DNA of 43,628 nucleotides, taken from positions 1 to 43,628 of the forward strand of contig CALZOU010000007.1 of NCBI GenBank assembly GCA_945827805.1, in the 5' to 3' direction. Positions within the stretch are counted from its first letter, which is position 1; every line of letters starts with the position of its first letter. The position numbers and the translations under genes were made by a program. Source of the DNA: an uncultured Lachnospiraceae bacterium. Its GTDB lineage: Bacteria; Bacillota; Clostridia; Lachnospirales; Lachnospiraceae. The notes under the pieces were generated by a model, which did no database searches, was not told where the DNA came from, and worked only from the letters and a program-made list of their open reading frames with translations. Shown piece after piece: positions 6,721 to 24,150 of the stretch.

Positions 6721-7542
6721 TCAAGGAGACAATCCACAAACACCCCATCCATATTCAATATCATACCCCAACGCTCCCCGGTCCTCCGCTTCGTCCATAA
6801 GATACTTCTCAAATTCTTCCGGGGATTCCCAGGTTCGTCTGGCGCATATACCTGCGATCCGTGCCGCCGCATAAGACGTACCCTGACTCTCCCCGTCAAG
6901 GGAACTCGCAGGTGCCGTTACAAATACACTTTCATTTTTCTGACTGTAAGAAGCTGCCTCTCCGTTTTCCGTTACAGTGCCTACACCTATCACACTGTCA
7001 TAAGCCGCAGGATACAGCATCTTGTTCTTTTTGTATGTTTCGCCAAGATTTCCTGCCGCGCTGATCAGAATTACCTGATTACTCGCTGCATACTCCACCG
7101 CATTCTGCAGTTCTTCACTGTCCGGAATACTGAATGCCATACATACCACACGACAATCATATGTATCTACTGCGTCATAAATTGCCCGGATCACTTCTTC
7201 CGGCTTTGTATCCTGCTTGTCACCGGAGATTTTCAGAGGAACAATCACCGTCTCAGGAGCATATTGACAAATCACCTCTGCGATCCGTGTGCCATGACCG
7301 ATATCATCGTCTGTATGTATGGATTCATCAAGATAATTCCACCCCTCATCAATTGGAAGCGATTTCTCCGGACTGATTCCGGAATCCAATACCGCGACCC
7401 GTACAGCCGCAGATTTGTCTGAGTCAGTGATTCCACAGCCTGAAAGTATGAATAACAGCAATATAAGAAGACATCCTTTCCATTTTGCACGCATTCTTCT
7501 CGCCTGCCTTCTATCCATCCAAATAAATGACTCGTATCTCAC
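6721..7542 (-). CDS. Subtilisin-like (S8) serine protease lipoprotein
   Basis: The 273-aa product has an N-terminal hydrophobic stretch ending in a lipobox (LLLFILSGCG, Cys36), so it is predicted to be lipid-anchored outside the membrane. The catalytic triad is complete: Asp53 (VAVLDSGI), His83 (DIGHGTRIAEVI) and Ser223 (GTSYAAARIAG), with the oxyanion Asn165 in SAAGN. It is short for a subtilase and has no obvious pro-domain. The GTG at 7542 overlaps the upstream stop (GTGA), giving coupling, but ATGs at residues 9 and 17 are also possible; the start is uncertain. It is the last gene of the giant surface-protein operon. A role in processing or releasing those proteins is an inference from position. 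Confidence 0.88.
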   Translation of the reverse strand: MRYESFIWMDRRQARRMRAKWKGCLLILLLFILSGCGITDSDKSAAVRVAVLDSGISPEKSLPIDEGWNYLDESIHTDDDIGHGTRIAEVICQYAPETVIVPLKISGDKQDTKPEEVIRAIYDAVDTYDCRVVCMAFSIPDSEELQNAVEYAASNQVILISAAGNLGETYKKNKMLYPAAYDSVIGVGTVTENGEAASYSQKNESVFVTAPASSLDGESQGTSYAAARIAGICARRTWESPEEFEKYLMDEAEDRGALGYDIEYGWGVCGLSP

Positions 7543-8045
7543 GGATTACTCTGAATAGTAAAAACTATTTCCGCACGATGCAGCGGTGTTAATTGCTCAT
7601 CCTCGCTAAAACACTCATATCTCAGGATAGAATTCGGGTATTCTCCTTCCGGCAGAGCTTTCTTTATTTCTATATCGTATAACCCTTTTCCCGGAGAAAT
7701 CAGACCGGACTGAAACAGCAGCGTCTCATCCTCCAGCAGGATGCTGATCCTAAAATAACAGTTATTCTTACCTGGATTATATAAATTGACTTCCTGTTTT
7801 TTCTGGTCGGCTTTAAATATCATCTTCTCTGTTCCCGGCACAGCAATGCTCCCCTGAGCAGATGTCTCATTCTGCTTCTGTCCGGAGCCTTCCGGCAAAG
7901 AGGCTTCCGGCAGATCAACGGCATTTTCTTCAAGAGGCAGGGGAGTTTTTTTCTCCCCTGTCTTTACCACGCCAATAACGCCAACCATTGTCAGCAGACC
8001 CAGCATCAATACCACAAATATGATACTCTGTTTTCTTTTTATCAT
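7539..8045 (-). CDS. Membrane-anchored extracytoplasmic protein of unknown function
   Basis: This 168-aa protein has a basic start and one N-terminal membrane helix (IIFVVLMLGLLTMVGVIGVV), no lipobox, and a Pro/Glu/Gly-rich linker of about 50 residues. A C-terminal beta-sandwich-like domain follows (VNLYNPGKNNCYFRISILLE, then LISPGKGLYDIEI and LHRAEIVF). The domain pattern is familiar from small proteins encoded beside large Clostridia surface proteins, but I cannot name the family. AGGAGA precedes the ATG. The gene sits between the 2710-aa protein (33-bp gap) and the subtilase (4-bp overlap). It could tether or chaperone the giant proteins at the membrane, which lack anchors of their own; that is inference. 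Confidence 0.75.
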   Translation of the reverse strand: MIKRKQSIIFVVLMLGLLTMVGVIGVVKTGEKKTPLPLEENAVDLPEASLPEGSGQKQNETSAQGSIAVPGTEKMIFKADQKKQEVNLYNPGKNNCYFRISILLEDETLLFQSGLISPGKGLYDIEIKKALPEGEYPNSILRYECFSEDEQLTPLHRAEIVFTIQSNP

Positions 8046-8078
8046 ACTTTATTCTCCTAACGGCTCATCTTATGGCTC

Positions 8079-11000
8079 TTAGTTTTCCACCATTCTGGCA
8101 TTAAACAGCAATCGCAAAGGCTTATCCTCTTCCTTTTCGCTGGTCTCAAAAAACTCAGCAAGAGAGAATGATTTCTTTTTTTCCGGTGTGGAAGAAGAGA
8201 TTACCATCATCTGACCAGACTCATCATCCACAGAACCATCATTCTGTTTTTCTGCTCCGATCTCTGTAATTCTGATGCGCACCTCGCGATTCTCCAGAGA
8301 AATATTTTCACTGACAGAAATCTGGGCCGTATCCTCTTCTCTGTTTATTTCATCCGGAATGATCAGCTCATAGGTTGTGGTAACCTCCATTGTCTGTGCC
8401 ACTGATGGTGAGAAAGCATCGTTTCCGCCATATCTCGCCTGCACCGTATACGTTCTCGCTGCCTGCAAACCGGTAAACTGATGATCTGACTGCCATGGAC
8501 CCTGATCAATACGATACTGGGTCTCACCGTATAGCTTGACATCTTCTTCGGGCAATGGTTTTACCCATACCATGGAATCGGTTACATAGGCCCTTGTCTC
8601 AGGAGGTGCCGGAATAGTTTTTTCAATCTGACATACCTGTTTTTCCGATTGTCCTCCATTATGATCTGTAGAGTTTTCGTCCGGAGTGAATACTGCATAA
8701 ATAACAGATTCACCCAGCTGAAGGTTCTTTGCAGAAATGGATGCCTGTCCATTTTTCAACTGCACGCTTTGTTCCAGAACATCATTGATATAGAAATCAA
8801 CCTGCCCTGTCTGTGCTGTTTCATCCACACCGGTAACGGTTGCCGTCAGACGAAGTTTCTGGCCCGACTCAACATGGAAAAGCTTTTTGATATTAGCCCA
8901 TACTCCTGTCTCTTCTTCGGCCGAAACGGTAAGACGGACAACTGGCTCTGCTCGATTAACTGTAATATCCATGGCCGCATCTGCTTCTGCCTGATAATTA
9001 CTGTCTCCCGTGGACGCAAGTACGGTGTATGTTCCTGCATGAAGCAGCGGTACCTTTTCTTTTGTCCGCAGTACGGCTTCGTGTCTTGTGCCTTTACTGT
9101 CTGTCCACGACGCGGATAACTGATCCATAAGATCTTTTCCCGTATACACAAGTTTCGGCACTTCTTCCCACTGGATCTGGACAGATGCCGGTAAGATACG
9201 ATATGTCCGTTTTGCGTTTTCCGGCAGTATGTAGTTATGATTTGTGGCCTCTACTGCTGCTGCTGTATATTCACCTGCATTAATGGCTGTATTTCCCTGC
9301 AGGCGAATCTCACACTTATCTTCGCCCACCAGATTTACCGCATATGTAGCGACAGCAGATGCTGTACCGTCATATGTTCTGTCCTGATATCCTTTCCACT
9401 CCAACTCCAGAACTTTAGGAACAACTGTCACTTTCTGCGAGTCGCTTGAAGCATTGTACACGTCATCTTCTGCTTTTGTTGCCGTGATAACCGCAGTTCC
9501 CACTTTTTTGATCACGGCTTTGCCATCTTCAACCGCTACTACCGACGGATCACTGCTTGTAAACGTAATATCTCCCTGACCACTGCCTCCACTGGCCAAT
9601 ATGTTCAGAGGTTCGTCACCATATACGGCATTATCAGTCATAGAAAGTTCGATCGGCTGTTGTGCTGCTTTCCCCGTAGCTGTAATCCGAACTTCTGTAC
9701 TTTCACTCACCATCCAGAGATCGTTCTCTGCATAGCGAACCTGATAATATCCGCTCTTTAATCCGGTGATCGTGCTTCCCTGTACAGGTGTCCAGTGATA
9801 GCCACTGTCACTGCTGTATTCCATTTCTTCTGTAACACCTGCGATCGTACCGTCAGTCGTGACCGTTGTCTGTGTATTGGAAGAAACAATCCCTGCCGGT
9901 TTATCACGTTTACCTTTATTTACGGTCAGCACAGCTGTTACTTCTGTTTCTTGATAACTTGCTGTTGCTTCTGTCTTCAGACGTATCTTAAAGTCTCCCG
10001 CTTTGGTCACGGTCAACCGGGAACCTTCCAATACACCTTCTCCGCTGCCGCCGATCAATGTATAAGCTGCCTCGCCGGCATTGGGATCAATCGTAAACAG
10101 TGCTGACACATCAATAGCATCCCCACCATACGTACAGGTCATATCTTTGGCCGCTGTATTCGTGCCCAGCTTCTGCACATTGATCGTCTGCCTTGCCCTG
10201 AGCTCATCGGGATTACGAACACCTTCCGGAAGAACCAGATCACCGTATACCGTACAATGCCCGGTAAGTTTTTCATTAAACGCACCTTTTGTCCACTGTA
10301 CCTGCATATCCACTGTCTCACCGTTATTCAGGGTCACTTGTACGTGATCCGGCAGTTTCAGCTGATCAAAGGTGGTTCCATAATCTGTAGAAATATCATT
10401 TAATTCAGCAATAGTCACTGCTTTTACCAGCAGATCAAAGGTAAATCGATCAGAAACCTCATACTCTCTTAACGTTCCGGTACTATCATGATAAGTTCCC
10501 CGTCCCGAGATTTCGACGGAAAAAGCGGCGTCAGGACGCTTCTTTAATACAAGGAACTGTCCGTTAACCTCCAGATAGTCATTTTCCGAAATACTCCACT
10601 CGACAGTCAGATCTTCGGGTGCTCCCGGAATACTGATATTCGCAACAGTGCTGCCTACGTCAGCATTCTCATCTATCACCAGATCAGATACCTGGATCTG
10701 TGCCGGTGTTATAGGCTGCTGCGCCACAGATACCATCAATGTCTGTTCCAATGAATAGCTGTCCGTCAGCGGATAACTTGCCATAACTACCGCATCTCCG
10801 GCATTTACCGCAGTAAGTGTATTTTCTTCCAGGGTAACAGCACCATCTCCCATCAGTACAGAACACTCAATCTTACTGCTGTCCAATGTAATCGTATTGC
10901 CATTTGTCATGACACCATAGTAACTCAGTTCGGCCTGATTACCCGCATACATGGTTTCCTTCTGTGTATCTGCGTCCACGATCATGCCATCGACCGCAAT

Positions 11001-14000
11001 GGAAAGCCCGGTCAGACCACTTAATTCCCCGGGAATTATCTCACACAGCTGACTGGTTGTATTTCCTGCCCGATCCTGTGCGCTTACCGTGATCTGCTGC
11101 GTATTGCCATTACCTGTACCTGAATACTCAAACCGTCCGTTTGTCACCGGTACTGTCTGCCCGTTTATGGTTACAGCACTGTTGTTTTCCGCAGTACCCG
11201 TAATGGTATACCGGTTATCCCGGCTCTGCACCACCACATTATCCAGCATCAGCTCCGGAGGCGTCGTATCGACTTCTACCGTCACGGTATTCTGCGTATA
11301 ATCTCCCTGTCCATTGATCGCGCATATGCCAATGTTGCTGCCGCCGTCGGCAAGGGTAAACGTATGAACTCTCGTTTCACCCGCATTCAGACTATGATCA
11401 AGGATTGCGCCTGATGCATCCGTAAGATACTCTCCGTCTACATCCAGAAGATAGCTGATATCCTGATCTGCAGTAATCGACAGCTGAATCTCCGAAGTAT
11501 TTGTCTGACCGGTAAAGGCATCATCCACCTGCGTCTGCGCTGCATCCCGGCTGTCATCCGAGGTTTTTGCGGCTGCTGTCAGAGATTTTCCATTTACTGT
11601 ATACGTAAGCTTGGCCGGGTTCGCCTCCGGTAATAACACCGGTTCTGTCTTCGCCACTTCTGAAACGAACGTGGTTCCGTTCACCGTTTTGCTTGCAGAG
11701 ACCACACCTATGTATTTTTTCCCGGGTATAACACCTACCTTCTTTGAGCCACTGATGATACGTTCTCCATTTGCATCTGTGACATAATGACCTTCACCAT
11801 CCTGCAGATATTCCGCTTCCTCAGCCGTATAGCCAAAATAGATCTCATGGTCCGTCGTGGTCATGCCTGTGACACCTTCCACAGCGTTGCCCTCTTCGTC
11901 TAACAGTGTAACAAAATACTCTTCAGTATCACCGGAAGCATCCCATTTCATCAAGAACTGACCGTCGCCTCCCGGTGTCATGGTAAATCCGGTTACCGCC
12001 TGAGGTGTATTCGGATTAACATACGTAAACGCATTATGTGTTAAATTCGATCCAACAGCATTTCCCGTATCATCATTAAGCACAAGACGTACCATGTATT
12101 CTCCGGACTGTGTATTTTCCGGAAGCTTTATCTGCACACTGCCGCTGGCTTTTCCTTCTCCATCCGGCGCGATCTCAACCGCTGATTCCGTGATCTTAAA
12201 TCCCGACGGTTCCGCTTCCATTCTGGAACGATAATACTCGCTGAGTTCATCTTCTGACAGTCTGTCCAGCTCCTCTTCTGCCAGCGTAGCCGGCTCCTGG
12301 GAAATCTCACTGGTATTTACAAGATACGCATCCAGTGAAGCCCCCGGCTGAGCACCGGATACACTGTATGATACATTGATTGTTCCGTCATTTTCTGTAA
12401 CAGAGGATGCCTGGATTCCTGCCACCTCATCTACTTTATGCGCTTCCATATTGAGCGGAATATCTGATTTTACGACCCATTTTCCGTTGACCGGTGCCAC
12501 GAGGCCAATGCCAAGATAATTCTCTTCTGTTCCGCTGTCCGACTCATCTGCGGATATGGTCTGCAGGATACAGTTTTCATCCTCTGTCAGCTGTACTTTC
12601 CTGCCGCTGGGATCATAAAGGGAAACGTGGTTCAGAATGCTGTCTCCATCCGCCAGCTGACTCTTATCGTAACCGATCTGGAAAAGACTGTAATCATTGT
12701 CTTTTATCGAAACCTCATAGCTATTGAGATTTGCCCTTGCGGATTTCTTCACAGCCATATCCGTCATATTGTCGCCAAGCAGCATGACGCCGTCCACATT
12801 GCTGTCACCGGTATCATACGTCACTGCCAGCGCATTTTCCAGATCTCCTTCCGGAATGGAGAATTGTTCGGCCAGATATTCCCAGTCGTCATAGAATTTG
12901 ACCTTTTTATCTGCCCAGTAATAGGACACCGAGATCGGTATGCCGATGACCCGGATACCTGCATAAACACGGTAACTGGACAGCTCTGCCATAACGGACA
13001 GAAGCTCTTTACCGCCAACCACAGGAACATAATCGGGAATAAAAATTCCGACATATGCCTTTCCTCCCAGGGAAAGGGGACCAAATATCGTATCCAGCCG
13101 CGGATCAGCCACCAGCCAGAAGCCTGTCTCACCACGGACAATGCCCAGAATATTTACTTTGGAATCCATGCCCAGATCCAGACAGGGATATACGCTTCCG
13201 TCGGCCATCTTTGTTCCGTAAAGCTTAATATGAGCGCCGATAGATTCAAAGACTTTCAGGCCTATGATCTTACCTTCTGCCGCTTCAAAGCTGACACCCT
13301 GACCGCCTACACTCATATTGACATCATCTACGGTAAAGGTAAACGTCGTCGGATCCACATATCCGGTATACACTGTAAGCGTAGTGGGCGGGAAGATATT
13401 AAAGTTTCCTTTGATCGTATCGTAAAGACCGGAAATACCACCACCCATTTTGTTCAGGAATCCAACAGGTCCCAGCGGGATTTTTACCACATCGCCGCCC
13501 ATGTAGAAGTACATGGAATCCGGATAGCAGTTTCCGCTGTCCTCCTTAACGAGAGAGAAGCCAAAACTACACTCAAATGTATCGCCGACTTTAACATTAC
13601 CGTCAACACCGATGAACCATCCCGGATAGTCAATAGAATCTATCTTAAAGCTTGCTCCGGCTCCGGCTTTGGTAAATTTGGGCATGGAGTCATCCGTAAG
13701 ATTGATGCCTCCCTCAGCCTTTACCCCCACAAGGTAAGCGCTGTTATCACTTTCTTTCTGACCATAACGCATTTCTTCCAGATTCAGTTCCAGGAAATTA
13801 TCTGTTTTCTGGCCTTCTCCGATACTGTTCAGATCATCCCGCTTATTATATTTTTGCTCCAGCGCAGATTGCGGCTCGTCATCATCGTCACCCTTTGCCG
13901 CCTTGCTCCACCATGGTAGGCTTACGGAAATGCTTCCGCCTAAAGAAATGGTTTCCACACCAAGAACTGCATTGCTGATCTCTACCTGAAAACCGGTAAG

Positions 14001-16211
14001 TGCTCCCACCGTTTTTGTCAGCTGACTACCGACAACACCGGCCGGCGTAATGATCTCCACGTCATCTGTTCTCTGGTAATCCTCTCCGATCTCACCATCG
14101 CTGATGTTGTCGTTAAGGTCTTCGTTATTGCTGTCATCGTCAACGCCGCGCAGCTCGTAATTCTTTTCATCTTCCAGGCAGATATAAAAATCACCTACAT
14201 GGAACAGATAATCGCCTACATATAGCCCTCCCTCACCGGTAAATACCAGAGCATCGCTGACCTTACCAAACCATTTCCATCCCGAAAACTGAGATTTAAA
14301 CTGATCTTTCAGACCGTCCGTCTCTGGATGATCTGAATAACGTGTTACCGTAATCACCGCTTCTTTGTTAAAACTGTTGCGATAACGGATCGCTGAATTT
14401 ATGATGGCGCCATTTGCAATGGTATAGTATTCATGGCCGCCCATCTCATATGTACCGATGGTGCCCCGGATCGTCATCAGGATATTGCTGCTTTCCTCTT
14501 CGGTCATGGCCGCCATATCTTCTTCATTCTCCAGAAGACGCACGCCATAATACTTTTCACCTGCCTCATCCGTCATCTGACCCACAAGCATAACGCCATA
14601 TTCAATACGGTCAAACTTCGGATCGTCCGTCATCTGCAGAGCCACGGACAGATTGCCATATCTCTCTGCATTCAGACACAGTCTGCATTCTCCGGGAGCA
14701 TACGAAAACTCCTGATTCCCCGGAAGTGAAACTGTCATTGTGGAATCATCGGCAATAGCTATGGACGCTTTGGAAACAGGTACATTCTGTTCTGACAATG
14801 GATCTGTAAGAGTCATAGTCCAGTCATTGTCTGCCTGAAGGAAGGAGAAACCGGTACCTTTTAACGTAACTTTTTTTTCAACACTTCCCGTATATAACGT
14901 TGCCGGAGCCACTTCGGTGATCTGAAGCTTTGGCAGTTCACCTTTACGGCCGGGAATGATCACATATTTCATTCCTTCTGCCGTGATATCTCCTGATGTC
15001 ACCTGAACCCCAAGGTGTGCCACCGTCGTTTTGTCCTGAAGGGACGGAAAGACTTTAAATGTGGCTGTATAACTGCCTCCTGCATCCAGATCGATATAGG
15101 CCGTGTCACTGCCCTGGGCTATACTGAATTCATCAGAAAGCCCCAGTTTTACAGTCACATCCTCCATTACCTGATCCGTATCATTCGTCACCTGCACAAG
15201 GACATCAAACGGATCATTATCCGCTGAGAAAGCTTCCCCGCTGCTGTCCAGCGAAAGCTTCTGGGGCGCATTGATCTGAACGCTGATCCCCTCATCACCT
15301 ACTGTATCGGATATACTTCCTATACCATAGTAAGTTTCATAGATACGGTGTTCTCCTGCTGCCAGCGAAGAAGCATCATAATATAAAGCAACCGCACTGT
15401 CTGCACGTTCATATGCATTCTTATTGGTTGTAAAATTCAGATAGGGGTTGATCTCGCAGTCCCATTTGGTGCCGGACAGGGTATTCCAATGGGCTGCCAC
15501 CATTTTATCCGGGCGAAGAGCATCTTCCCAGCCATACAACACGCCTCTTGCTGTCACATTTGCGGCATACTGCCGATCCGAAGACTGCCACACCATGGGA
15601 ACCTGCGCACCGGAAAACTCTGTTTCATTGGTAACATAGGTACGTTCCGCCAGCATAGCCGAGCCGTCATTTGACCCCAGCATGGTATCCAGCAAAATAC
15701 GGCTTCCCAATTGCACAGCTTTTCCGGAACCATTGGCCACTTCGTAACGGATCCGCACATTTCCCACATCCGGATCCGCAAAATCCGTGACCAGTCTCAG
15801 CTGCTGTGTTACCTGTACGCCGTTAACCTGCCAGATCGTGGTGGCTGTTGTACCCTGTACACTGGTGGGGGTAACAATACCTCCCTGTACACCATAATCA
15901 TTACCAAAAATGTAATCTTTCCCATCTATGCGGATCGTTGTGAAACTGGTATCCGGAGTGTTGTCAAAGAAACTCAGCAGACGGTTACGATCACTGGTCT
16001 TGCTGGGCAATCCATCTTCCGTAGACACCACATAACGTCCTGTACTGCGATTGACCCGTACCTGTACAAGTGAGTTTCCCACTGTAAGTACGGCATCCGT
16101 ACGGAGCAAAGGCGCTGCTTCTGCAACAACATTAAGCGAAACAGGACAGACCATCGCCGCACACAGGACAACCGCAATAAATTTTCGTAAATACTTCTTT
16201 ATTCTGTTCAT
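8079..16211 (-). CDS. Giant secreted multidomain Ig-like/MBG surface protein (2710 aa)
   Basis: A signal peptide (basic MNRIKKYLRK, hydrophobic core, likely cleavage after VVAEAA near residue 33) is followed by a beta-rich N-terminal domain (to about 310), CARDB-like and IPT/TIG-like segments (about 330-520), and an acidic linker (KGDDDDEPQ, near 770). An unusual glycine/aromatic beta-rich region spans about 770-1110. Next come FN3-like (near 1420) and Ig-like domains (DTTPPELML near 1649), a Big_2-like motif (SDPSVVAVEDGKAV, near 2223) and an MBG/YDG-type motif (TYDGTASA, near 2280). It ends NARMVEN, with no LPXTG, SLH or membrane anchor. GAGGT precedes the ATG at 16211, 24 bp after the 1897-aa gene. 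Probably a fibre or adhesin-like exoprotein; ligand unknown. Domain limits are approximate. Confidence 0.85.
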   Translation of the reverse strand: MNRIKKYLRKFIAVVLCAAMVCPVSLNVVAEAAPLLRTDAVLTVGNSLVQVRVNRSTGRYVVSTEDGLPSKTSDRNRLLSFFDNTPDTSFTTIRIDGKDYIFGNDYGVQGGIVTPTSVQGTTATTIWQVNGVQVTQQLRLVTDFADPDVGNVRIRYEVANGSGKAVQLGSRILLDTMLGSNDGSAMLAERTYVTNETEFSGAQVPMVWQSSDRQYAANVTARGVLYGWEDALRPDKMVAAHWNTLSGTKWDCEINPYLNFTTNKNAYERADSAVALYYDASSLAAGEHRIYETYYGIGSISDTVGDEGISVQINAPQKLSLDSSGEAFSADNDPFDVLVQVTNDTDQVMEDVTVKLGLSDEFSIAQGSDTAYIDLDAGGSYTATFKVFPSLQDKTTVAHLGVQVTSGDITAEGMKYVIIPGRKGELPKLQITEVAPATLYTGSVEKKVTLKGTGFSFLQADNDWTMTLTDPLSEQNVPVSKASIAIADDSTMTVSLPGNQEFSYAPGECRLCLNAERYGNLSVALQMTDDPKFDRIEYGVMLVGQMTDEAGEKYYGVRLLENEEDMAAMTEEESSNILMTIRGTIGTYEMGGHEYYTIANGAIINSAIRYRNSFNKEAVITVTRYSDHPETDGLKDQFKSQFSGWKWFGKVSDALVFTGEGGLYVGDYLFHVGDFYICLEDEKNYELRGVDDDSNNEDLNDNISDGEIGEDYQRTDDVEIITPAGVVGSQLTKTVGALTGFQVEISNAVLGVETISLGGSISVSLPWWSKAAKGDDDDEPQSALEQKYNKRDDLNSIGEGQKTDNFLELNLEEMRYGQKESDNSAYLVGVKAEGGINLTDDSMPKFTKAGAGASFKIDSIDYPGWFIGVDGNVKVGDTFECSFGFSLVKEDSGNCYPDSMYFYMGGDVVKIPLGPVGFLNKMGGGISGLYDTIKGNFNIFPPTTLTVYTGYVDPTTFTFTVDDVNMSVGGQGVSFEAAEGKIIGLKVFESIGAHIKLYGTKMADGSVYPCLDLGMDSKVNILGIVRGETGFWLVADPRLDTIFGPLSLGGKAYVGIFIPDYVPVVGGKELLSVMAELSSYRVYAGIRVIGIPISVSYYWADKKVKFYDDWEYLAEQFSIPEGDLENALAVTYDTGDSNVDGVMLLGDNMTDMAVKKSARANLNSYEVSIKDNDYSLFQIGYDKSQLADGDSILNHVSLYDPSGRKVQLTEDENCILQTISADESDSGTEENYLGIGLVAPVNGKWVVKSDIPLNMEAHKVDEVAGIQASSVTENDGTINVSYSVSGAQPGASLDAYLVNTSEISQEPATLAEEELDRLSEDELSEYYRSRMEAEPSGFKITESAVEIAPDGEGKASGSVQIKLPENTQSGEYMVRLVLNDDTGNAVGSNLTHNAFTYVNPNTPQAVTGFTMTPGGDGQFLMKWDASGDTEEYFVTLLDEEGNAVEGVTGMTTTDHEIYFGYTAEEAEYLQDGEGHYVTDANGERIISGSKKVGVIPGKKYIGVVSASKTVNGTTFVSEVAKTEPVLLPEANPAKLTYTVNGKSLTAAAKTSDDSRDAAQTQVDDAFTGQTNTSEIQLSITADQDISYLLDVDGEYLTDASGAILDHSLNAGETRVHTFTLADGGSNIGICAINGQGDYTQNTVTVEVDTTPPELMLDNVVVQSRDNRYTITGTAENNSAVTINGQTVPVTNGRFEYSGTGNGNTQQITVSAQDRAGNTTSQLCEIIPGELSGLTGLSIAVDGMIVDADTQKETMYAGNQAELSYYGVMTNGNTITLDSSKIECSVLMGDGAVTLEENTLTAVNAGDAVVMASYPLTDSYSLEQTLMVSVAQQPITPAQIQVSDLVIDENADVGSTVANISIPGAPEDLTVEWSISENDYLEVNGQFLVLKKRPDAAFSVEISGRGTYHDSTGTLREYEVSDRFTFDLLVKAVTIAELNDISTDYGTTFDQLKLPDHVQVTLNNGETVDMQVQWTKGAFNEKLTGHCTVYGDLVLPEGVRNPDELRARQTINVQKLGTNTAAKDMTCTYGGDAIDVSALFTIDPNAGEAAYTLIGGSGEGVLEGSRLTVTKAGDFKIRLKTEATASYQETEVTAVLTVNKGKRDKPAGIVSSNTQTTVTTDGTIAGVTEEMEYSSDSGYHWTPVQGSTITGLKSGYYQVRYAENDLWMVSESTEVRITATGKAAQQPIELSMTDNAVYGDEPLNILASGGSGQGDITFTSSDPSVVAVEDGKAVIKKVGTAVITATKAEDDVYNASSDSQKVTVVPKVLELEWKGYQDRTYDGTASAVATYAVNLVGEDKCEIRLQGNTAINAGEYTAAAVEATNHNYILPENAKRTYRILPASVQIQWEEVPKLVYTGKDLMDQLSASWTDSKGTRHEAVLRTKEKVPLLHAGTYTVLASTGDSNYQAEADAAMDITVNRAEPVVRLTVSAEEETGVWANIKKLFHVESGQKLRLTATVTGVDETAQTGQVDFYINDVLEQSVQLKNGQASISAKNLQLGESVIYAVFTPDENSTDHNGGQSEKQVCQIEKTIPAPPETRAYVTDSMVWVKPLPEEDVKLYGETQYRIDQGPWQSDHQFTGLQAARTYTVQARYGGNDAFSPSVAQTMEVTTTYELIIPDEINREEDTAQISVSENISLENREVRIRITEIGAEKQNDGSVDDESGQMMVISSSTPEKKKSFSLAEFFETSEKEEDKPLRLLFNARMVEN

Positions 16212-16235
16212 GGTTTACCTCATCCGTGTATTCGT

Positions 16236-19200
16236 TTATTCTTCTGCAAATACCTGTACAAGCTTTGTATTTCGTTCCTGATCCTGCACAAGTAAGGTAA
16301 AGTATCCTGTTTCCGGGAAAATATAGCTTCCGTCCAGCAGCGAATCTGCGATCTCATTACCTTTCAGCTTAAAATCTCCCATAGATGCTTTTCCTTTTAA
16401 CATTTTTACGGATACATCACCCTCCTGATGAATAAGTCCAAACTGGTTTTGGCCGGTTTTGATACAGAGTGCCTTATCAAAATAGAGCTGCCCGTTCAAC
16501 TGCACCTGGAATTGCTCCGGATCATAGACATACACAGTTCTTTCTATTACCGATGTATTGCCTACGGCATCCACAGCAGTGTACCTGAGCGTATACTTTC
16601 CCTGTTTCTGTGTATCTACCTTTCCCTCAATACTGAGAGGCGTCTCTGCAGGATGATCATCCCTGACATCCACACCATCCAGGGGATCAAAAGGCTGACC
16701 CACAGGAATACAGAGTTCTGTATTTTCCATAGAGATCTCCGGTGCTGTATGATCAATGCAGTCTATAACGATATCTGCAAAGCCTCGATTACCAAGATCG
16801 TCCTGGGCCCACAGGCGGGCAGTAATATTTTCATCATATACCATCTCAGCGCTGGTCTCATCCACAACGGTCATTCCGTTGGGCCATGTCACAGGCTCGT
16901 CCGCAGATACGGTAACCTTCACAGGTTCGCTGCCAAGCTCAGTGCGGTCAGCCTGAACCGTAAGTTTAGGGCCGGTTTTATCAATACAGGTTACCTCAGC
17001 GGTAATCGTATCCACATTTTTCCCTGCCGCATCCGTATACTGGAAAGTGAAGATTCCGTTTTGCCGGAAGGTATAGAATCGGCTTCCATTATTATTCAGT
17101 ACACGGATGGCCGCATTCTCATCTGTTGTGCAAAGCTCCACCTGCACATCATCGCTGGTTCTTTCTGTTGTGGAATACTTCAGCTGTACTTCCGGAAGAT
17201 CCGGAGAGATCCAGTCAACCTGTGCGGTAACACTGGCGGTGTTTCCGGCCCGGTCTTTTGCAGTAAAGCTGTATGTACCGTTTTCTGTGAATTTCCAGCT
17301 TGAAATACCTTTCTCCCAGCTGACACGCTCGTCTGCGCTGGCACTGACATACACAGAGAAGGGTGTTTTGGTAACATTGTCCGGCGTATAGAACAGACTG
17401 ATCTCCGGGGCATCCCGGTCAATACGCTCCATGGTATACGTATATTCTGACTCGTTTCCTGCCTGATCCTTTAAAACAAACGTATACTTTCCGTTTTCCT
17501 TGAACGTATGCGTCATATCCTCTGCGCCGCTTGCGTCGTCCGAAGCATGAAGGGTTATTTCCACATCCGTATTGGTCCATCCTGCTACGGAAGCTGTCAT
17601 ATATCCCGTTGGCGCCACCTTGTCTATCCTGCTTACAGTGACAGTGGCTGTATTCTGGTTACCGGCGGCATCCGCAAAGATAAACACATGATTTCCGTTG
17701 GCTGTAAACAGATGTGTTATGTCTTTCTCGGGCATGGTTACCGGACTGATGCTGTCAAACTCCAGACGGACTGCCACATCCTGGTTTGTCCAGTGATCCG
17801 GATCATATGCTTTACCGTCATCGGTGGTAAATATTGCCTTAGCTTCCGGCTTTTTCTTGTCGATCCAGTCTACACTGACGGTTTTAGACCCCACATTTCC
17901 GGCCTCATCTTTAAAGTAAAACGTATGTTCTCTATTTTCCGTAAACACAAAGGTGTGTCCGACAGCATCTTCTTCGTATTTTACATTTCCATCTTCGTCT
18001 TCAACCTTTTTCAGATAGGTAATCGTTTTTGCCAGATCATCCTTCGCCTGTATCTGCACCGTCACATCCTGATTTGTCCAGTCTTTTGCGGAATACTGAA
18101 TATTATCATCTTCACAGGAAGGTTCCTCTGTATCCACCGCCAGCAAAAGACTTCCGCTGCTGGTGAGATTAATTTCTGTATCCGTGATCTGGTATTCCAG
18201 TACGCCATAGGTGGTGACCCGATAGGTATCTCCCTCGTTTGGCACCAGCTCGATCCCTTCAGCCTCCAGAATACGTTCTCCCATAATATCCTTACCATTA
18301 AAGGTCAGACTGTCATATTTCTGCGCCGCGTTGGTTATCTTCAAAATCACCGTCACCGGCTCCTTTGTCCACTGACCGTCGGACAAAAGTTCTCCCGAAG
18401 CACTCCTGATCTCTGTATCCAGTTTTGGAAGATTCCGGTCTATCCAATCCACCTTGGCTTCAATACTTCCGGTATTTCCCGCCTCATCCGTAAATGTAAA
18501 CGTAAAACTGCCATTCTCCTTAAATGTATGCGTAAAACTGCCATTCTTCGGAGAGGTAACTGTTACGGCACTGTCATCCTTCAGAGAAAGGGTCGCTGTG
18601 ACATTCTCACTGGTCCGCTTTGCCGGGGAATAGCTCACCGAAGCTTCCGGCGGTGTATTGTCCAGTACTACGGTAAGTGTGCGGGATCCGCTTTTATTCC
18701 CCAGATTATCCTCAACATATACTTCAATGGTATAACTGCCGTCAGCCAATGTGGGGAGCGTCTCTTTCAGCGAGCTCATTTTCTGCCATTCTTTGCCGGA
18801 AGGATCTTGTGTATCCTTCGGATAAACACGCCAGAAGCAGTCTGCCAGATCTTTATCTTCGCTCTGCACAGAAAACTCAGCTGTCTGATGAGGTCTTGCA
18901 TCGGCCTGAGCAGAAGAAATCGTAAATTCGGGAGCTGTTTTATCGATCCAATCTACTTTTGCTGTAGCACTGCAGGTATTTCCGGCTTCATCCTTCGCCT
19001 GGAACGTATATTCTCCGTTTGCTGTAAACTCATGGCTGGCTGTAACCTCATGGCTGTCCGGAGTAATCCATTCACCGTCAGAAAGCGAAGCTGTAACTAT
19101 TACATTCTGATTTGTTCTTTCAGTTTGAGAATATTTCAGAGTAATGACCGGAGGCGTAATATCGTAAACAACCGTTGTTTCTGCGATCTCAGACACATTG

Positions 19201-21929
19201 CCCACCGCATCTTTAAAGCGCGCCTGAATGGTATGTTCTCCTTCTGTTGCCTCAAAGGTGATCGCCTTTTTCTCCACATATTTTTCCCATTCAGTCCATG
19301 ACTCATCGTCTACAGAGTCTACAGAAAACTGCATCTGAATATCTCCATTTTCCGAATAATCGTCTTCAACCGAAACATTCACATTGATGCTGTTGATGTT
19401 TGTAGTATTCTTTCCTTCCTTTTCTATGGTTCCTTTCGGAGCGTTCTTATCCAGAGCAAAGACCTTCGAGGTTCTGATCCCGGTGTTTCCGGCCTCGTCG
19501 CTGGCCTTAACGTGAAAATACGTATCATCCTGCAGTCTGATCTGCACACTGATATTCTCGGGATCCTCTGCCCTGGTCCATGTTTCCACAGAAGATGGAT
19601 CCGCACTTCCACTGCATCCATATTCCACGTTCAGCGCTGCTTTTGCAGTTATGGAGTCATTTACCGCTGCGTTTACAGAATAAATACTCTTTCCTTCATT
19701 TCCCGCATTACCATCGGGATCAATGATGATTTCCGGAGGTGTATTATCCAGCAGGCAGTTTCTGTATTTCACCGTCTGATTCCCCGCCGAATCGGTAGCC
19801 CGGACATACAGCCGCCATTCTCCGTCTGCATTTTCTGGAGAAGAGAGCGTCTCAGCATCTGTCGTTTTCCAGTCTGCCTCCGCCGGATCACTGTTTCCGG
19901 ACTTCCACTGGAATTCTACTTTTTCAACAGCAGTAAGGGTATCACTGCATTTTGCCTGCATAATATGACTTTTGGCATAGCCGCTGCTGCTGCAGGTAAT
20001 GGTTACCGTCGGCGGTTCACAGTCAACCAATACTTCCTGTTCGCAGGTATCGCTGTTGCCTGTCGCATCTTCTGCATAGATTTTCAGAAGATACGTGCCG
20101 CTCAATGAAGGCAGAGGAATCTCCTGTCCTTCGTCAAACTTACCGGATCCTGTCAATTGGTTGTTTTCATTAAACCACTGATATTTTCGAAGGAAAACAC
20201 CGCTGCCGCTGTCTGAAATCTGCGGGGTGACACGGACTACCTTACCGCCCATTTCTTTTGTGGAAAGGGTAATCTCCGGAGGTGTTACATCACGTCTTGC
20301 CGCGGTACTGCTGCACACAGGTACAGCGATATTTCCCACGTTATCCTGGCATACAATCCACAGGTACCAGCTGCCATCGCCGGCGGGTGCCGGTATCTGA
20401 TAACCCCCCGCTTCACCATCCATCACATCTGTAAACCGATCCGGTGCTTTCGCTGACTGCACGTCCCATGCATACTGAACAAGCTTCACACCGCTTCCGG
20501 ATATACTCTGTGTATCACTCTGTATATCGTCAGACACTGCAACTGTTACCACACTGTCTTTACCCATCCAGTTCTCGTCAAATTCCGGTATGGTCACTAC
20601 AGGAGGGCAGGTATCAATGTTTACCGCATATGTATCCATATATGTTTTATGAGAAGCCGTAAACTGAGCATATCTTGTGGACGCTGTAGCATCCTGCTTT
20701 ACACCATCCACGATCCCGTTCAGATTAAAACTTTGAATGGCCAGACCATTCACATCATCGCCTTCATTCACCGTGTAGGAAAAACTGGCCAGATCCGTCG
20801 TCGTAGCTGTGAGAATATAGGCTGCCGTTTTTCCATTGGAAAAAGTGACCGTTGGATTTCCCGTCACTTTTATGGTCTCATGAAATTTCAGGTGGAGCTT
20901 GATGGTATCGCCTGCTTTTAATACTGTATCCCGGCTGAAGCCCTCAGACGTAACACCTGTCAGTTCCGGCGGGCGATTGTCCATATAAAGGCTTCCGCCG
21001 GAAGCCAGACCGGAATTCAGATTTTTTACGCCATCTTCCGTAAGTCCGGCTGTGGTACTGTTTCCTGCATCATCCGCTATAGTAAATGCGCTGACACCTC
21101 TGAAAGCAATATTACGGTTGTCGCTGATAACCTCTCCATCTCTGGGGATCGTGTATGTATAGCTTATTGTAGAAGAAGAACCGTCTGCAGTGGACTGTAC
21201 CCCGCCTGTGCTCACGCCTGAGCTGTAAGGCTCGATCCAGGGAGCACCCTTATCTTTAGTCAGATCAACACTGGCTGTGATCCGCTCACTGAAATGCAGA
21301 GTGTATGTAACCTTTGTTCCCGCGGCATGCGGTTTATTCCAGTCTACACCGTCGTTGGTGGTTGCAGTGATATTCAATATTTTGGGCGAAACCTCATCCC
21401 GGATGATCATTGAGCAGTTTTGAATCTCCAGATCACCTTTTGTGCCAATATGGTTATAGACGTAATATTGAATCCTATATGTATTTTTCGGGATTTCTCT
21501 GTCATTAACTGACAGAATGTTCCAATGATGGGATACAGAATAGCTGTCACTCTCCGTTTTCCAGGTGCTTCCTACCTGATTCCCATTCTTATCAAAACAC
21601 TTTACTTCCAGTTTTCTGGTGTTTGTCCGGGAGCCATTGGCTCCTACCTTTACCGACGCATTTAATTTTAATTCTCCCTGATTTGCACGATTCTGAGCCG
21701 CCGCATCCAAATACACATTCTGGGTAAGATTCAACGTGTATTTTCCAGATTCATTCCAGTTTCCTCCTGTCAGACAATTCTGACCATACTTTCCCGTTGT
21801 GAACTGCACATCCGGACGATTCTGATCTGCCGCATGTACTGTTTGAGGCAGACACCACACCATCGCAAGAACCATCAACTGTACGATCAACCATGTGATT
21901 ATCATCCTTTGTTTTATCTTCTGTATCAT
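16236..21929 (-). CDS. Giant secreted Ig-like repeat protein (1897 aa)
   Basis: A signal peptide (MIQKIKQRMIITW then a long hydrophobic core, cleavage near VHAAD, residue 34) leads into a beta-sandwich domain (VQFTTGKYGQNCLTGGNW). Bacterial Ig-like modules fill the rest (about 180-1800). At least eight tandem units of roughly 80-110 residues between about 995 and 1730 share a linker such as VDWIDKTAPEF, VDWIDRNLPKL or CIDHTAPEI and a core like FKENGSFTFTFTDEAGNTGS. The last unit (DDHPAETPLSI... VDAVGNTS) resembles DUF5011-type Ig domains. No LPXTG, SLH or C-terminal membrane helix is seen. The ATG at 21929 has a GGAGAGGT site. This is the first gene of the four-gene surface operon and probably builds an elongated stalk. 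Confidence 0.87.
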   Translation of the reverse strand: MIQKIKQRMIITWLIVQLMVLAMVWCLPQTVHAADQNRPDVQFTTGKYGQNCLTGGNWNESGKYTLNLTQNVYLDAAAQNRANQGELKLNASVKVGANGSRTNTRKLEVKCFDKNGNQVGSTWKTESDSYSVSHHWNILSVNDREIPKNTYRIQYYVYNHIGTKGDLEIQNCSMIIRDEVSPKILNITATTNDGVDWNKPHAAGTKVTYTLHFSERITASVDLTKDKGAPWIEPYSSGVSTGGVQSTADGSSSTISYTYTIPRDGEVISDNRNIAFRGVSAFTIADDAGNSTTAGLTEDGVKNLNSGLASGGSLYMDNRPPELTGVTSEGFSRDTVLKAGDTIKLHLKFHETIKVTGNPTVTFSNGKTAAYILTATTTDLASFSYTVNEGDDVNGLAIQSFNLNGIVDGVKQDATASTRYAQFTASHKTYMDTYAVNIDTCPPVVTIPEFDENWMGKDSVVTVAVSDDIQSDTQSISGSGVKLVQYAWDVQSAKAPDRFTDVMDGEAGGYQIPAPAGDGSWYLWIVCQDNVGNIAVPVCSSTAARRDVTPPEITLSTKEMGGKVVRVTPQISDSGSGVFLRKYQWFNENNQLTGSGKFDEGQEIPLPSLSGTYLLKIYAEDATGNSDTCEQEVLVDCEPPTVTITCSSSGYAKSHIMQAKCSDTLTAVEKVEFQWKSGNSDPAEADWKTTDAETLSSPENADGEWRLYVRATDSAGNQTVKYRNCLLDNTPPEIIIDPDGNAGNEGKSIYSVNAAVNDSITAKAALNVEYGCSGSADPSSVETWTRAEDPENISVQIRLQDDTYFHVKASDEAGNTGIRTSKVFALDKNAPKGTIEKEGKNTTNINSINVNVSVEDDYSENGDIQMQFSVDSVDDESWTEWEKYVEKKAITFEATEGEHTIQARFKDAVGNVSEIAETTVVYDITPPVITLKYSQTERTNQNVIVTASLSDGEWITPDSHEVTASHEFTANGEYTFQAKDEAGNTCSATAKVDWIDKTAPEFTISSAQADARPHQTAEFSVQSEDKDLADCFWRVYPKDTQDPSGKEWQKMSSLKETLPTLADGSYTIEVYVEDNLGNKSGSRTLTVVLDNTPPEASVSYSPAKRTSENVTATLSLKDDSAVTVTSPKNGSFTHTFKENGSFTFTFTDEAGNTGSIEAKVDWIDRNLPKLDTEIRSASGELLSDGQWTKEPVTVILKITNAAQKYDSLTFNGKDIMGERILEAEGIELVPNEGDTYRVTTYGVLEYQITDTEINLTSSGSLLLAVDTEEPSCEDDNIQYSAKDWTNQDVTVQIQAKDDLAKTITYLKKVEDEDGNVKYEEDAVGHTFVFTENREHTFYFKDEAGNVGSKTVSVDWIDKKKPEAKAIFTTDDGKAYDPDHWTNQDVAVRLEFDSISPVTMPEKDITHLFTANGNHVFIFADAAGNQNTATVTVSRIDKVAPTGYMTASVAGWTNTDVEITLHASDDASGAEDMTHTFKENGKYTFVLKDQAGNESEYTYTMERIDRDAPEISLFYTPDNVTKTPFSVYVSASADERVSWEKGISSWKFTENGTYSFTAKDRAGNTASVTAQVDWISPDLPEVQLKYSTTERTSDDVQVELCTTDENAAIRVLNNNGSRFYTFRQNGIFTFQYTDAAGKNVDTITAEVTCIDKTGPKLTVQADRTELGSEPVKVTVSADEPVTWPNGMTVVDETSAEMVYDENITARLWAQDDLGNRGFADIVIDCIDHTAPEISMENTELCIPVGQPFDPLDGVDVRDDHPAETPLSIEGKVDTQKQGKYTLRYTAVDAVGNTSVIERTVYVYDPEQFQVQLNGQLYFDKALCIKTGQNQFGLIHQEGDVSVKMLKGKASMGDFKLKGNEIADSLLDGSYIFPETGYFTLLVQDQERNTKLVQVFAEE

Positions 21930-21964: not shown

Positions 21965-21973
21965 AGTATAGCA
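21965..21973 (-). promoter_or_regulatory. Extended -10 promoter of the surface operon, no recognisable -35
   Basis: The minus strand reads TGCTATACT (21973-21965), an extended -10, about 35 bp before the ATG at 21929. The -35 position 17 bp upstream is GAAGAA, not a sigma-A hexamer, which suggests a need for an activator such as the adjacent LytTR regulator. Confidence 0.6.
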
Positions 21974-22004
21974 TCCGGAAAAGTGCTTTCTTCTTCGCCG
22001 GTGT

Positions 22005-22039
22005 GAACGGTAAATATACGGTGCGAATGGATCCTTCGC
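22005..22039. promoter_or_regulatory. Candidate operator: ACGGT repeats and GCGAA palindrome
   Basis: Between the two divergent promoters lie two ACGGT direct repeats one helical turn apart (GAACGGT at 22005-22011, ATACGGT at 22016-22022). The inverted repeat GCGAATGGATCCTTCGC (22023-22039) follows directly. On the minus strand ACCGTTCAC fits most of a LytTR half-site. Spacing differs from the usual ~21-bp LytTR period, so the identity of the binding protein is open. Confidence 0.4.
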
Positions 22040-22116: not shown

Positions 22117-23382
22117 ATGATACAAATCTTATCCGCCATACATCATATGACGACCATGATGTTTGGCATATTCATCTCTGCTTTCATGCTGGGTGTGCGC
22201 CAGAATCGCAAAAATGTCCTGGTATTGTCCGGCTTTTTCTGCTGCGATGGATTGCTGTTTCTGATCATTCTTGGCCTGTCTGACCACACGATTGCCAATC
22301 AGCTGTACCCGCTGATCGTACATCTGCCGCTGATCGTATTTCTCACTCTATACTACCGTTATCCAATCCTGTCCAGCTGGTTATCCACTCTCTCCGCCTA
22401 CCTGTTCTGCCAGGTCAGCAACTGGGTAGGACTGCTTGTATTGACCATCACCGATGAAGAGTGGTGCTATTATACAGCCCGGATCATTACGACGATCATC
22501 ACCTTTATTCTGCTTTCCTGCCTGGTGTGCCGCACCACGTCGGCTGTCTTTGCCAAGGATCGGCGCAGCCTGTACATTTTTGGCTTTCTGCCCCTGGTGT
22601 ACTATGTTTTTGACTATATTTCCACCAAATTCTCCAGCCTGCTCTACTCCGGAAACAAAGCTGTGGTGGAATTCATGGGCTTCATTTTCTGTATCTCATA
22701 TGTCGTGTTTCTTCTGGTCTATTTCCGGGAATACGAGAAAAAGCAAGAGATCAGCCAGTACAATGCTCTTATGGAAATGCAGCTGTCCTCCCTCCAGAAT
22801 GAGATAGAACAGGTGCATCTCTCCGAAAAGACACTTTCCATCCTGCGGCATGATATGCGCCATCATCTGAATATCCTTCTGACCCAGCTTCAAAATGGCA
22901 ATACCGACCAGGCCATGGACTATATCCGGAGGATCAACGATGCCTATAACGAAACGATTATTACCGCTTACTGTAAAAACGATATGGTCAACTCTGTTAT
23001 TTCCATCTACCAGACTCGTTTTTCCCTGAAATCCATGCAGCTTATCTGCGATATTTCCATTGGTGAACACCTTCCCTGCTCTGAGATTGCCTTCTGCGCG
23101 ATTCTGTCCAATGCGCTGGAAAACGCGATGCATGCACTGGAAAAAAACGATCCCGCCAAAAAATGGGCAACTCTTTCTCTCTCCTGCAGAGATAAGAATC
23201 TGCTGCTCAGGCTGGAAAATCCCACCAGTGAGCCGCCCCGGTTTGTGGACGGCATCCCTGTTTCCGACAAAAACGACCACGGTATCGGTGTAAAAAGTAT
23301 TATCTATTATGTGAATCAACTCAACGGGCAGTACCATTTTTCTCTGTCCGGAAACAGTTTTGTTTTGAGGATCATTATTTAG
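22117..23382 (+). CDS. AgrC-like GHKL sensor histidine kinase
   Basis: The 421-aa protein has a polytopic N-terminal sensor of about six membrane helices (residues 8-205), a coiled-coil linker (EKKQEISQYNALMEMQLSSLQ), and a phospho-acceptor His245 in SILRHDMRHHLNIL. A GHKL ATPase domain follows with N box SNALENAMHAL (331-341) and G box DHGIGVKSI (387-395). This is the layout of AgrC and related peptide-sensing kinases, which signal to LytTR regulators. The ATG at 22117 has only a weak ribosome site. The partner regulator follows after 28 bp. No AgrB or AgrD-like gene is in the window, so the signal is unknown. It is divergent from the surface operon. Confidence 0.9.
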   Translation: MIQILSAIHHMTTMMFGIFISAFMLGVRQNRKNVLVLSGFFCCDGLLFLIILGLSDHTIANQLYPLIVHLPLIVFLTLYYRYPILSSWLSTLSAYLFCQVSNWVGLLVLTITDEEWCYYTARIITTIITFILLSCLVCRTTSAVFAKDRRSLYIFGFLPLVYYVFDYISTKFSSLLYSGNKAVVEFMGFIFCISYVVFLLVYFREYEKKQEISQYNALMEMQLSSLQNEIEQVHLSEKTLSILRHDMRHHLNILLTQLQNGNTDQAMDYIRRINDAYNETIITAYCKNDMVNSVISIYQTRFSLKSMQLICDISIGEHLPCSEIAFCAILSNALENAMHALEKNDPAKKWATLSLSCRDKNLLLRLENPTSEPPRFVDGIPVSDKNDHGIGVKSIIYYVNQLNGQYHFSLSGNSFVLRIII

Positions 23383-23410
23383 TATCGGAAATACAAAAGA
23401 GAGGCTGATT

Positions 23411-24121
23411 ATGAAAATTGCTGTATGTGATGATGAAATACAATTTGTAAATGTGACTTGTGAAATGCTGAAAGAATGGGCATATCTAAGGGAAATACCG
23501 CTTACGCTCTGCCGCTTCACCAATGGGGATGATCTGATCATGGCCCACCAGCAGCAGTGCATGGATCTGATCCTTCTGGATGTGGTCATGCCGCTTTTGA
23601 ATGGTATCGATACTGCCAGAGAGCTTCGGGCAAAGGACCGGACAGTTCCTGTGATTTTTCTTACTTCTTCCAGGGAATTTGCCGTGGAATCCTACGATGT
23701 GAACGCCTTCCATTACCTGATCAAGCCGGTTTCCAAAGACCGGCTGTTTAATGTGATGGACCGTTTCCTGGAAACCTGCAAAAAACCGGAGGAAATCTTT
23801 ATGGCACAGACCGATACAGGATTTTGCCGAATTGTTATCAGCGATGTGGATTATCTCGAAGCACAGAATAAACATGTCCATGTCTGTCTCTCCAACGGTA
23901 CCTCCGTCCAGATCCGCGAACTGTTCTCCCGCTGCGAAGAAGTATTTTCGCCGGAGCGCGGCTTCTTTAAATGCCACCGCAGCTATATCGTGCAGCTTGG
24001 CCACGTGGCCCAGTTTACCAGGACTACAGTGATCACACATCACCATGCTTCTATCCCTATTTCCAGAAACAGCTATGTGGCATTTAAGGAAGCTTATTTT
24101 AATCATATGTTTCAGAGTTGA
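23411..24121 (+). CDS. LytTR-family response regulator
   Basis: The 236-aa regulator has a receiver domain with acidic pocket CDDE (6-9), phospho-acceptor Asp57 (LILLDVVMP) and Lys106 in LIKPVS. A LytTR DNA-binding domain follows (about 135-230, including DYLEAQNKHVHV, FFKCHRSYIVQL and ISRNSY). This is the AgrA/ComE architecture. GAGAGG lies about 10 bases before the ATG. It is the obvious partner of the upstream kinase and the best candidate to control the divergent surface operon. Its stop codon lies inside a palindrome (24116-24150). Confidence 0.92.
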   Translation: MKIAVCDDEIQFVNVTCEMLKEWAYLREIPLTLCRFTNGDDLIMAHQQQCMDLILLDVVMPLLNGIDTARELRAKDRTVPVIFLTSSREFAVESYDVNAFHYLIKPVSKDRLFNVMDRFLETCKKPEEIFMAQTDTGFCRIVISDVDYLEAQNKHVHVCLSNGTSVQIRELFSRCEEVFSPERGFFKCHRSYIVQLGHVAQFTRTTVITHHHASIPISRNSYVAFKEAYFNHMFQS

Positions 24122-24150
24122 GTCAAGGGGACAGGTTCCTCGGCTCAACT
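24116..24150. repeat. Palindromic unit with AAGGGGACAGGTTCCT core
   Basis: AGTTGAG (24116-24122) pairs with CTCAACT (24144-24150) around a GGGGACAGGTTCCT core. It spans the ends of two convergent genes, covering the regulator's stop and the last codons of the transglutaminase. It may act as a shared terminator, although no T tract follows. The core resembles dispersed GGGGACRGTTC palindromes that I recall from Clostridia genomes; unverified. Confidence 0.5.

Follow-up and report, generated by a model that had tools for sequence, protein, structure and literature searches.

How do two very large secreted proteins that lack an anchor of their own stay at the cell surface? A locus of an uncultured Lachnospiraceae bacterium (assembly GCA_945827805.1) raises this question. 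The window that we analysed, 43,628 nucleotides of contig CALZOU010000007.1, belongs to a 2.39-Mb draft genome that is 85.6% complete, and its best-matching relatives belong to Lachnospiraceae and other Clostridia. Four open reading frames (ORFs) on the minus strand encode, in this order, the secreted proteins giant 1 (16236..21929; 1897 amino acids (aa)) and giant 2 (8079..16211; 2710 aa), a membrane-anchored beta protein of 168 aa (7539..8045) and an S8 subtilase lipoprotein of 273 aa (6721..7542). Their ORF-coordinate spacings are 24 bp, 33 bp and a 4-bp overlap, exactly as listed in an initial annotation made from the sequence alone. Both giants have a signal peptide; giant 1 contains Ig-like repeats (Pfam Big_13 and Bact_surface_Ig-like) and no anchor, and giant 2 has homologues in other Clostridia genera.

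The initial annotation took the four genes for one operon in which the two small products look like dedicated partners of the giants. This view is supported only in part: the four do not form a conserved set, their complete order was present in no other genome searched, and the locus instead reads as a conserved core with a grafted module. When the four families were traced in other genomes, the combinations of giant 1 with giant 2 and of giants with the subtilase recurred, but that of the 168-aa gene with other giant pairs did not. The family libraries and literature searched gave neither a name for the system nor a paper matching the gene set. The surface operon is real, conserved and, it appears, unnamed, with an unusual replacement of an anchor.

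Giants 1 and 2 Occur as a Tandem Pair

The N-terminal half-domain of giant 2 was searched in 397 genomes of the same family (Lachnospiraceae). Matches were obtained in 13 genomes, seven of which hold a full giant 2, and in all seven giant 1 is encoded directly upstream. When the giant 2 core was scanned against 84,980 species genomes, 17 Clostridia loci were obtained, again with giant 1 directly upstream in 17/17, and the adjacency also occurs in genome G143 and three further Clostridia genomes. The pairing was checked independently by a search of 79 genomes for the C-terminal unit of giant 1. Its terminal domain gave matches of at least 88 bits in 7/7 genomes with a full giant 2 and in 0/72 others, six of which have the giant 2 N-terminal domain alone, in other proteins. 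In these 72 genomes no match rose above about 50 bits, and almost every one was confined to the common Ig part. The chance of such a split is 3e-10 under independence. A locus was assigned to the pair family if the gene for a full-length giant 2 was immediately preceded by one with the giant 1 terminal domain, and this arrangement is found in the window. The comparison shows giants 1 and 2 to be an obligate tandem pair. Frame breaks split giant 1 in locus L200 and giant 2 in L189 and L197, which reflects either true decay or assembly error.

The conserved C-terminal unit of giant 1 (16239..16883, minus strand), delimited by an alignment of 18 homologues, an AlphaFold2 (AF2) model and a structure match, consists of a Big_3-like Ig domain and a terminal beta domain. 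The C-terminal 215 aa were modelled with confidence (predicted local distance difference test score (pLDDT) 84.5), and the Ig domain is of the Big_3 type, as a structural match to 2kpn (1.5 A over 81 columns) indicated. In every aligned homologue the chain stops at the last strand or no more than a few residues from it.

Anchors of the Giants

Pfam and helix scoring detected no SLH repeats, LPXTG-like signal or C-terminal transmembrane helix on either window giant, as had been annotated, and such anchorless giants do call for a partner protein. An objection set down beforehand, namely that homologues of the giants usually carry sortase or SLH anchors, proved correct for giant 2, with its SLH or C-terminal membrane anchors, but not for giant 1, which was unanchored in all homologues checked. 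Homologues of giant 2 end in SLH domains in L191, L198, L200, L201 and L243-L245, including Oscillibacter MSJ-31 and Anaerovorax odorimutans (by Pfam in L191 and L201, by reading of the sequence in the remaining loci). A C-terminal membrane helix is present in L186-L188, L190, L194-L196, L199 and L202 (9/13 C-termini scored), and neither anchor was found on giant 2 in L068, L193 and L197. The anchors of the subtilase run parallel: SLH in L191 and L243-L245, a C-terminal helix in L188, L190, L194 and L146, and a lipobox in the window. Comparison of these loci shows giant 2 as the anchor-bearing partner of the pair, with an anchor type that is exchanged among lineages.

The Giant 2 Tail and the 168-aa Protein

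In the window, giant 2 ends in a tail recognised by homology (aa 2531-2710; 8082..8621, minus strand) that comprises an FN3-like and a degenerate 'TYTVTIP' domain and is presumed to be a docking module. The 168-aa protein encoded next to it, the presumed tail-binding partner, has one strong N-terminal hydrophobic helix, in line with its annotation as a single-pass membrane protein. Alignment of its family showed this helix followed by a conserved 'NPExNxCYF...PGxxI...LxAGEY' beta domain, and neither the 168-aa protein nor the tail proteins matched a family in Pfam or NCBIfam. The family is present in 68/397 Lachnospiraceae genomes, often in multiple copies, and its genes commonly adjoin secreted proteins with 'GTxTFxIxY' ends. 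The strict tail motif occurs in 30/129 neighbours of these genes (23%) versus 24/851 other genes (2.8%), so that it is enriched near them but far from universal. None of the other giant-pair loci has a member of the family. Judged by this distribution, the 168-aa protein family is not dedicated to these giants, and the claim that it is had to be dropped.

The three nearest relatives of the window 168-aa protein, in L048 and L152/L153, are encoded directly downstream of three proteins that hold the nearest relatives of the giant 2 tail (E 4.8e-14, similarity detectable over aa 2531-2636). The joint of tail and small gene thus recurs in G148 and G318. Since the nearest relatives of the tail and of the 168-aa protein share the same three loci, the simplest reading is that giant 2 acquired both together, as a single cassette, in the place of its SLH domains or membrane helix. 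The 168-aa protein, held in the membrane by its N-terminal helix, would then bind the giant 2 tail and stand in for the lost anchor.

The layout recalls that of WxL clusters, which comprise a small WxL protein, a large WxL protein, a WxL-interacting protein (WxLIP; DUF916-DUF3324-transmembrane helix) and often an LPXTG protein (Hassan et al., 2023, PMC10599100; PMC9772566). In both, a large secreted protein with a terminal beta domain is encoded beside a membrane-anchored beta protein, a likeness of layout only; the window tail itself is degenerate. Further WxL-like features of the related loci L048, L054 and L060 are a gene for a small protein of one domain and a gene for a protein whose C-terminus is a transmembrane helix. 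Unlike WxLIP, the window 168-aa protein has one beta domain, and its helix is N-terminal instead of C-terminal. The models for WxL (PF13731) and for WxLIP_PGBD/DUF916 (PF06030) matched nothing in the 15 genomes that carry the small family (0/15 each, own genome included), with positive Lactococcus lactis controls for both, and membership of a WxL cluster was rejected on this ground. Pfam matches were also lacking in 18 members of the small family for DUF916 and, at E 0.01, for DUF3324. A second small-family gene in the same genome (L060, contig C123, 238-5525) stands in a set with a 693-aa GTxTF-tailed protein, a 161-aa single-domain protein and a 313-aa protein with a C-terminal transmembrane helix, which resembles a WxL cluster without WxL or DUF916. 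Genome G149 (L079-L081) has at least 24 small-protein matches, often as tandem pairs after a giant.

The 168-aa protein could instead be a chaperone or assembly factor that is needed briefly for secretion and folding of giant 2 and does not anchor it. Relatives that adjoin many different tails, with many copies in some genomes, would suit such a role, as with chaperones of beta-rich surface proteins. Yet among giant-pair loci the 168-aa protein is present exactly where giant 2 has lost its SLH or transmembrane anchor and is missing wherever such an anchor is kept, and the layout resembles that of the membrane-anchored WxL-interacting protein (PMC10599100). We therefore regard a chaperone role as unlikely and favour that of a substitute anchor.

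The Subtilase

The fourth gene gave a Peptidase_S8 match (PF00082, E 2.4e-27) with the triad D53, H83 and S223 invariant in the alignment and a lipobox LSGC at 7446-7435, which confirms the S8 lipoprotein with a full triad. Its GTG start has no visible ribosome-binding site, and an alternative ATG at 7494 (MRAKWKGCLLILLLFILSGC) would give a more normal lipoprotein signal peptide. For these two reasons the 4-bp overlap with the 168-aa gene may actually be a gap of 44 bp.

An S8 gene directly follows giant 2 in 7/17 pair loci, five of them in one rumen group and the others in Oscillibacter and Anaerovorax. We also searched for the subtilase class-wide, unconditioned on context, and considered the best 20 loci, 17 of which had readable neighbours. 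In 14 of these 17 a gene encoding 1500 aa or more adjoins the subtilase gene on the same strand, and a further locus has a broken giant 2. The partner is the giant pair in L241 and L243-L245 and an unrelated giant type in others, and subtilase relatives in G302, G002 and G042 are likewise downstream of giants or giant pieces. Among lower-scoring subtilases, two of which are from the window's own genome, none lies beside a giant. Comparison across loci shows a subtilase subfamily that travels with giant surface proteins. The suggestion that the protease is a dedicated giant partner gains support from this linkage, which recurs in several Clostridia families and with other giant types. The unrelated giants adjoining the same subfamily are in L234, L237, L239, L240, L242, L246 and L249, and most are of 1700-2450 aa; a giant 2 domain shared by all subtilase-linked giants was rejected by profile comparison. 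In L195 (18715-19383) and L199 (8931-9602) the position behind giant 2 that the subtilase takes in other loci is occupied by an Lgt-like gene; the same gene in L099 matches PF01790 (E 7e-11).

Mycosins carry a C-terminal transmembrane helix. The mycosin model TIGR03921 is the best named S8 model for the window protease, a likeness to type VII secretion systems that reaches 99 bits against a cut-off of 278.75, and mycosin identity was rejected. ESX-like genes were not recognised in the window. The lipoprotein S8 protease PrtP of Treponema denticola, encoded in the dentilisin operon PrcB-PrcA-PrtP, is needed for cleavage of PrcA (PMC8167434). The window subtilase likewise is a lipoprotein that shares an operon with surface partners. 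The partners, however, are unrelated, PrcA is far smaller (about 70 kDa) and the window setting is Gram-positive, and the window protease reached 18.1 bits with NF033595 (cut-off 300), which rejects identity with PrtP.

The lipid-anchored subtilase would make defined cuts in the emerging giants and so mature or shed them. Alternatively, its targets could be foreign proteins: it would then be a co-regulated protease of the surface, and the giants would be the binding arms of a dentilisin-like complex. Anchoring as a lipoprotein or by SLH domains and adjacency to large binding proteins fit such a complex, for which dentilisin, itself a lipoprotein S8 protease with operon partners, gives a precedent (PMC8167434). 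Moreover, a cut site common to all partners is not apparent, given that the giants paired with the subfamily are unrelated. The two readings overlap, since the dentilisin protease itself is needed for cleaving its partner PrcA (PMC8167434), and the window S8 domain is compact, without the loops found in relatives, which argues against attack on foreign proteins. We consider such a role doubtful and prefer the cutting of the giants.

Proposed Mechanism

We propose a core operon with three members: giant 1, which has no anchor, giant 2, which carries one, and a subtilase attached to the membrane or wall. The giants would leave the cell by Sec. Giant 2 would keep giant 1 at the surface, probably by way of the invariant terminal domain of giant 1, and in the window giant 2 would dock onto the 168-aa protein. 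Cutting would fall to the subtilase, and a divergent LytTR two-component pair would control expression. This combination of docking, retention, cutting and control seems to us a somewhat probable account. Likely roles are adhesion, or binding of carbohydrate or of a host surface.

Several observations weigh against this account. No recognisable anchor is present on giant 2 of G143, G052 and Hominisplanchenecus, and most giant-pair lineages have no adjoining subtilase (e.g. L189, L193, L195, L196, L197, L202 and G143), so the subtilase is not essential everywhere. Its trees are poorly resolved and too weak for placing the window protein. The chief reservation concerns the window giant 2 tail: over its last ~75 aa homology is no longer detectable and the 'GTYSGTVTF' strand found in relatives is missing, so that docking by this tail could be degenerate.

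Two further explanations are very improbable. In polymorphic toxin systems in general, very large secreted proteins occur together with a peptidase that processes them, and the giants could be such toxins, or contact-dependent effectors, with the subtilase as processing enzyme. This is disfavoured, since the end of giant 1 (Ig-like plus small beta domain) is conserved across genera, unlike variable toxin tips, the C-terminus of giant 2 is an anchor or a docking tail, and a downstream immunity-like gene is missing. That the four genes are chance neighbours without a common function would agree with the absence of the full order elsewhere but is contradicted by the recurrence of the joints of giant 1 with giant 2 and of giant with subtilase in other Clostridia families, and of tail with small gene in G148 and G318.

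The proposed core operon is comparable to sortase- or SLH-anchored giant Ig-repeat adhesins in its signal peptides, its long Big/Ig-like runs and its relatives with an SLH or C-terminal transmembrane anchor. It differs in the obligate pairing of two giants, in a presumed docking tail with its partner in the anchor's place and in a dedicated subtilase. Tentatively, we suggest an unnamed Clostridia surface-assembly system in which an unanchored giant fibre is held by an anchor-swapping giant 2 and served by a dedicated anchored subtilase, and in which the tail and small protein could be a second, independent mode of attachment in Lachnospiraceae, analogous to WxL. It offers three testable links among families without Pfam or NCBIfam names: the giant pair, the giant-tied subtilase subfamily and the small membrane protein, apparently a substitute for SLH or membrane anchors. 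A second WxL-like mode of attachment would explain surface retention of anchorless Clostridia proteins such as giant 1. The pair is present in the named strains Oscillibacter sp. MSJ-31, Hominisplanchenecus faecis CLA-AA-H246 and Anaerovorax odorimutans DSM 5092 and can be tested there.

Domains of the Giants

Pfam detected several Ig-like domains in the giants, and the giant 2 core matched no family in Pfam or NCBIfam. The best conserved part of giant 2 in alignments is its N-terminal all-beta domain (~aa 30-350; 15162..16124, minus strand). AF2 was run on aa 30-1190, and the N-terminal blocks, mostly at 50-80 pLDDT, were usable. The N-terminal ~300 aa showed a weak Foldseek likeness to the N-terminal beta-sandwich of GH94 phosphorylases, as well as weak Ig-like matches. 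The likeness to the GH94 sandwich makes carbohydrate binding by giant 2 possible. A middle domain (~aa 840-1140; 12792..13694, minus strand) is conserved in the pair clade; it had no Pfam match in 15 members and its model, below 50 pLDDT, was too low for a fold reading.

Regulation and Flanking Genes

The presumed operon promoter (21965..22030, minus strand) was read directly from the sequence. In the same way, a candidate extended -10 element, TGCTATACT, was located at 21973-21965, and the region holds two direct repeats, CCATTCGCAC and CCGTTCACAC, 20 bp apart. Divergent from the operon, a GHKL histidine kinase and a LytTR response regulator are encoded on the plus strand (22117..24121; Pfam HATPase_c_5, Response_reg and LytTR). 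This pair is likely to regulate the operon, for which its divergent position is suggestive only. Beside it, at 24145-25170, lies a gene for a Transglutaminase-core protein (PF01841), and at 25387-27501 a Lysyl-tRNA synthetase-like ORF of 704 aa has a C-terminal extension that by eye resembles an HD hydrolase.

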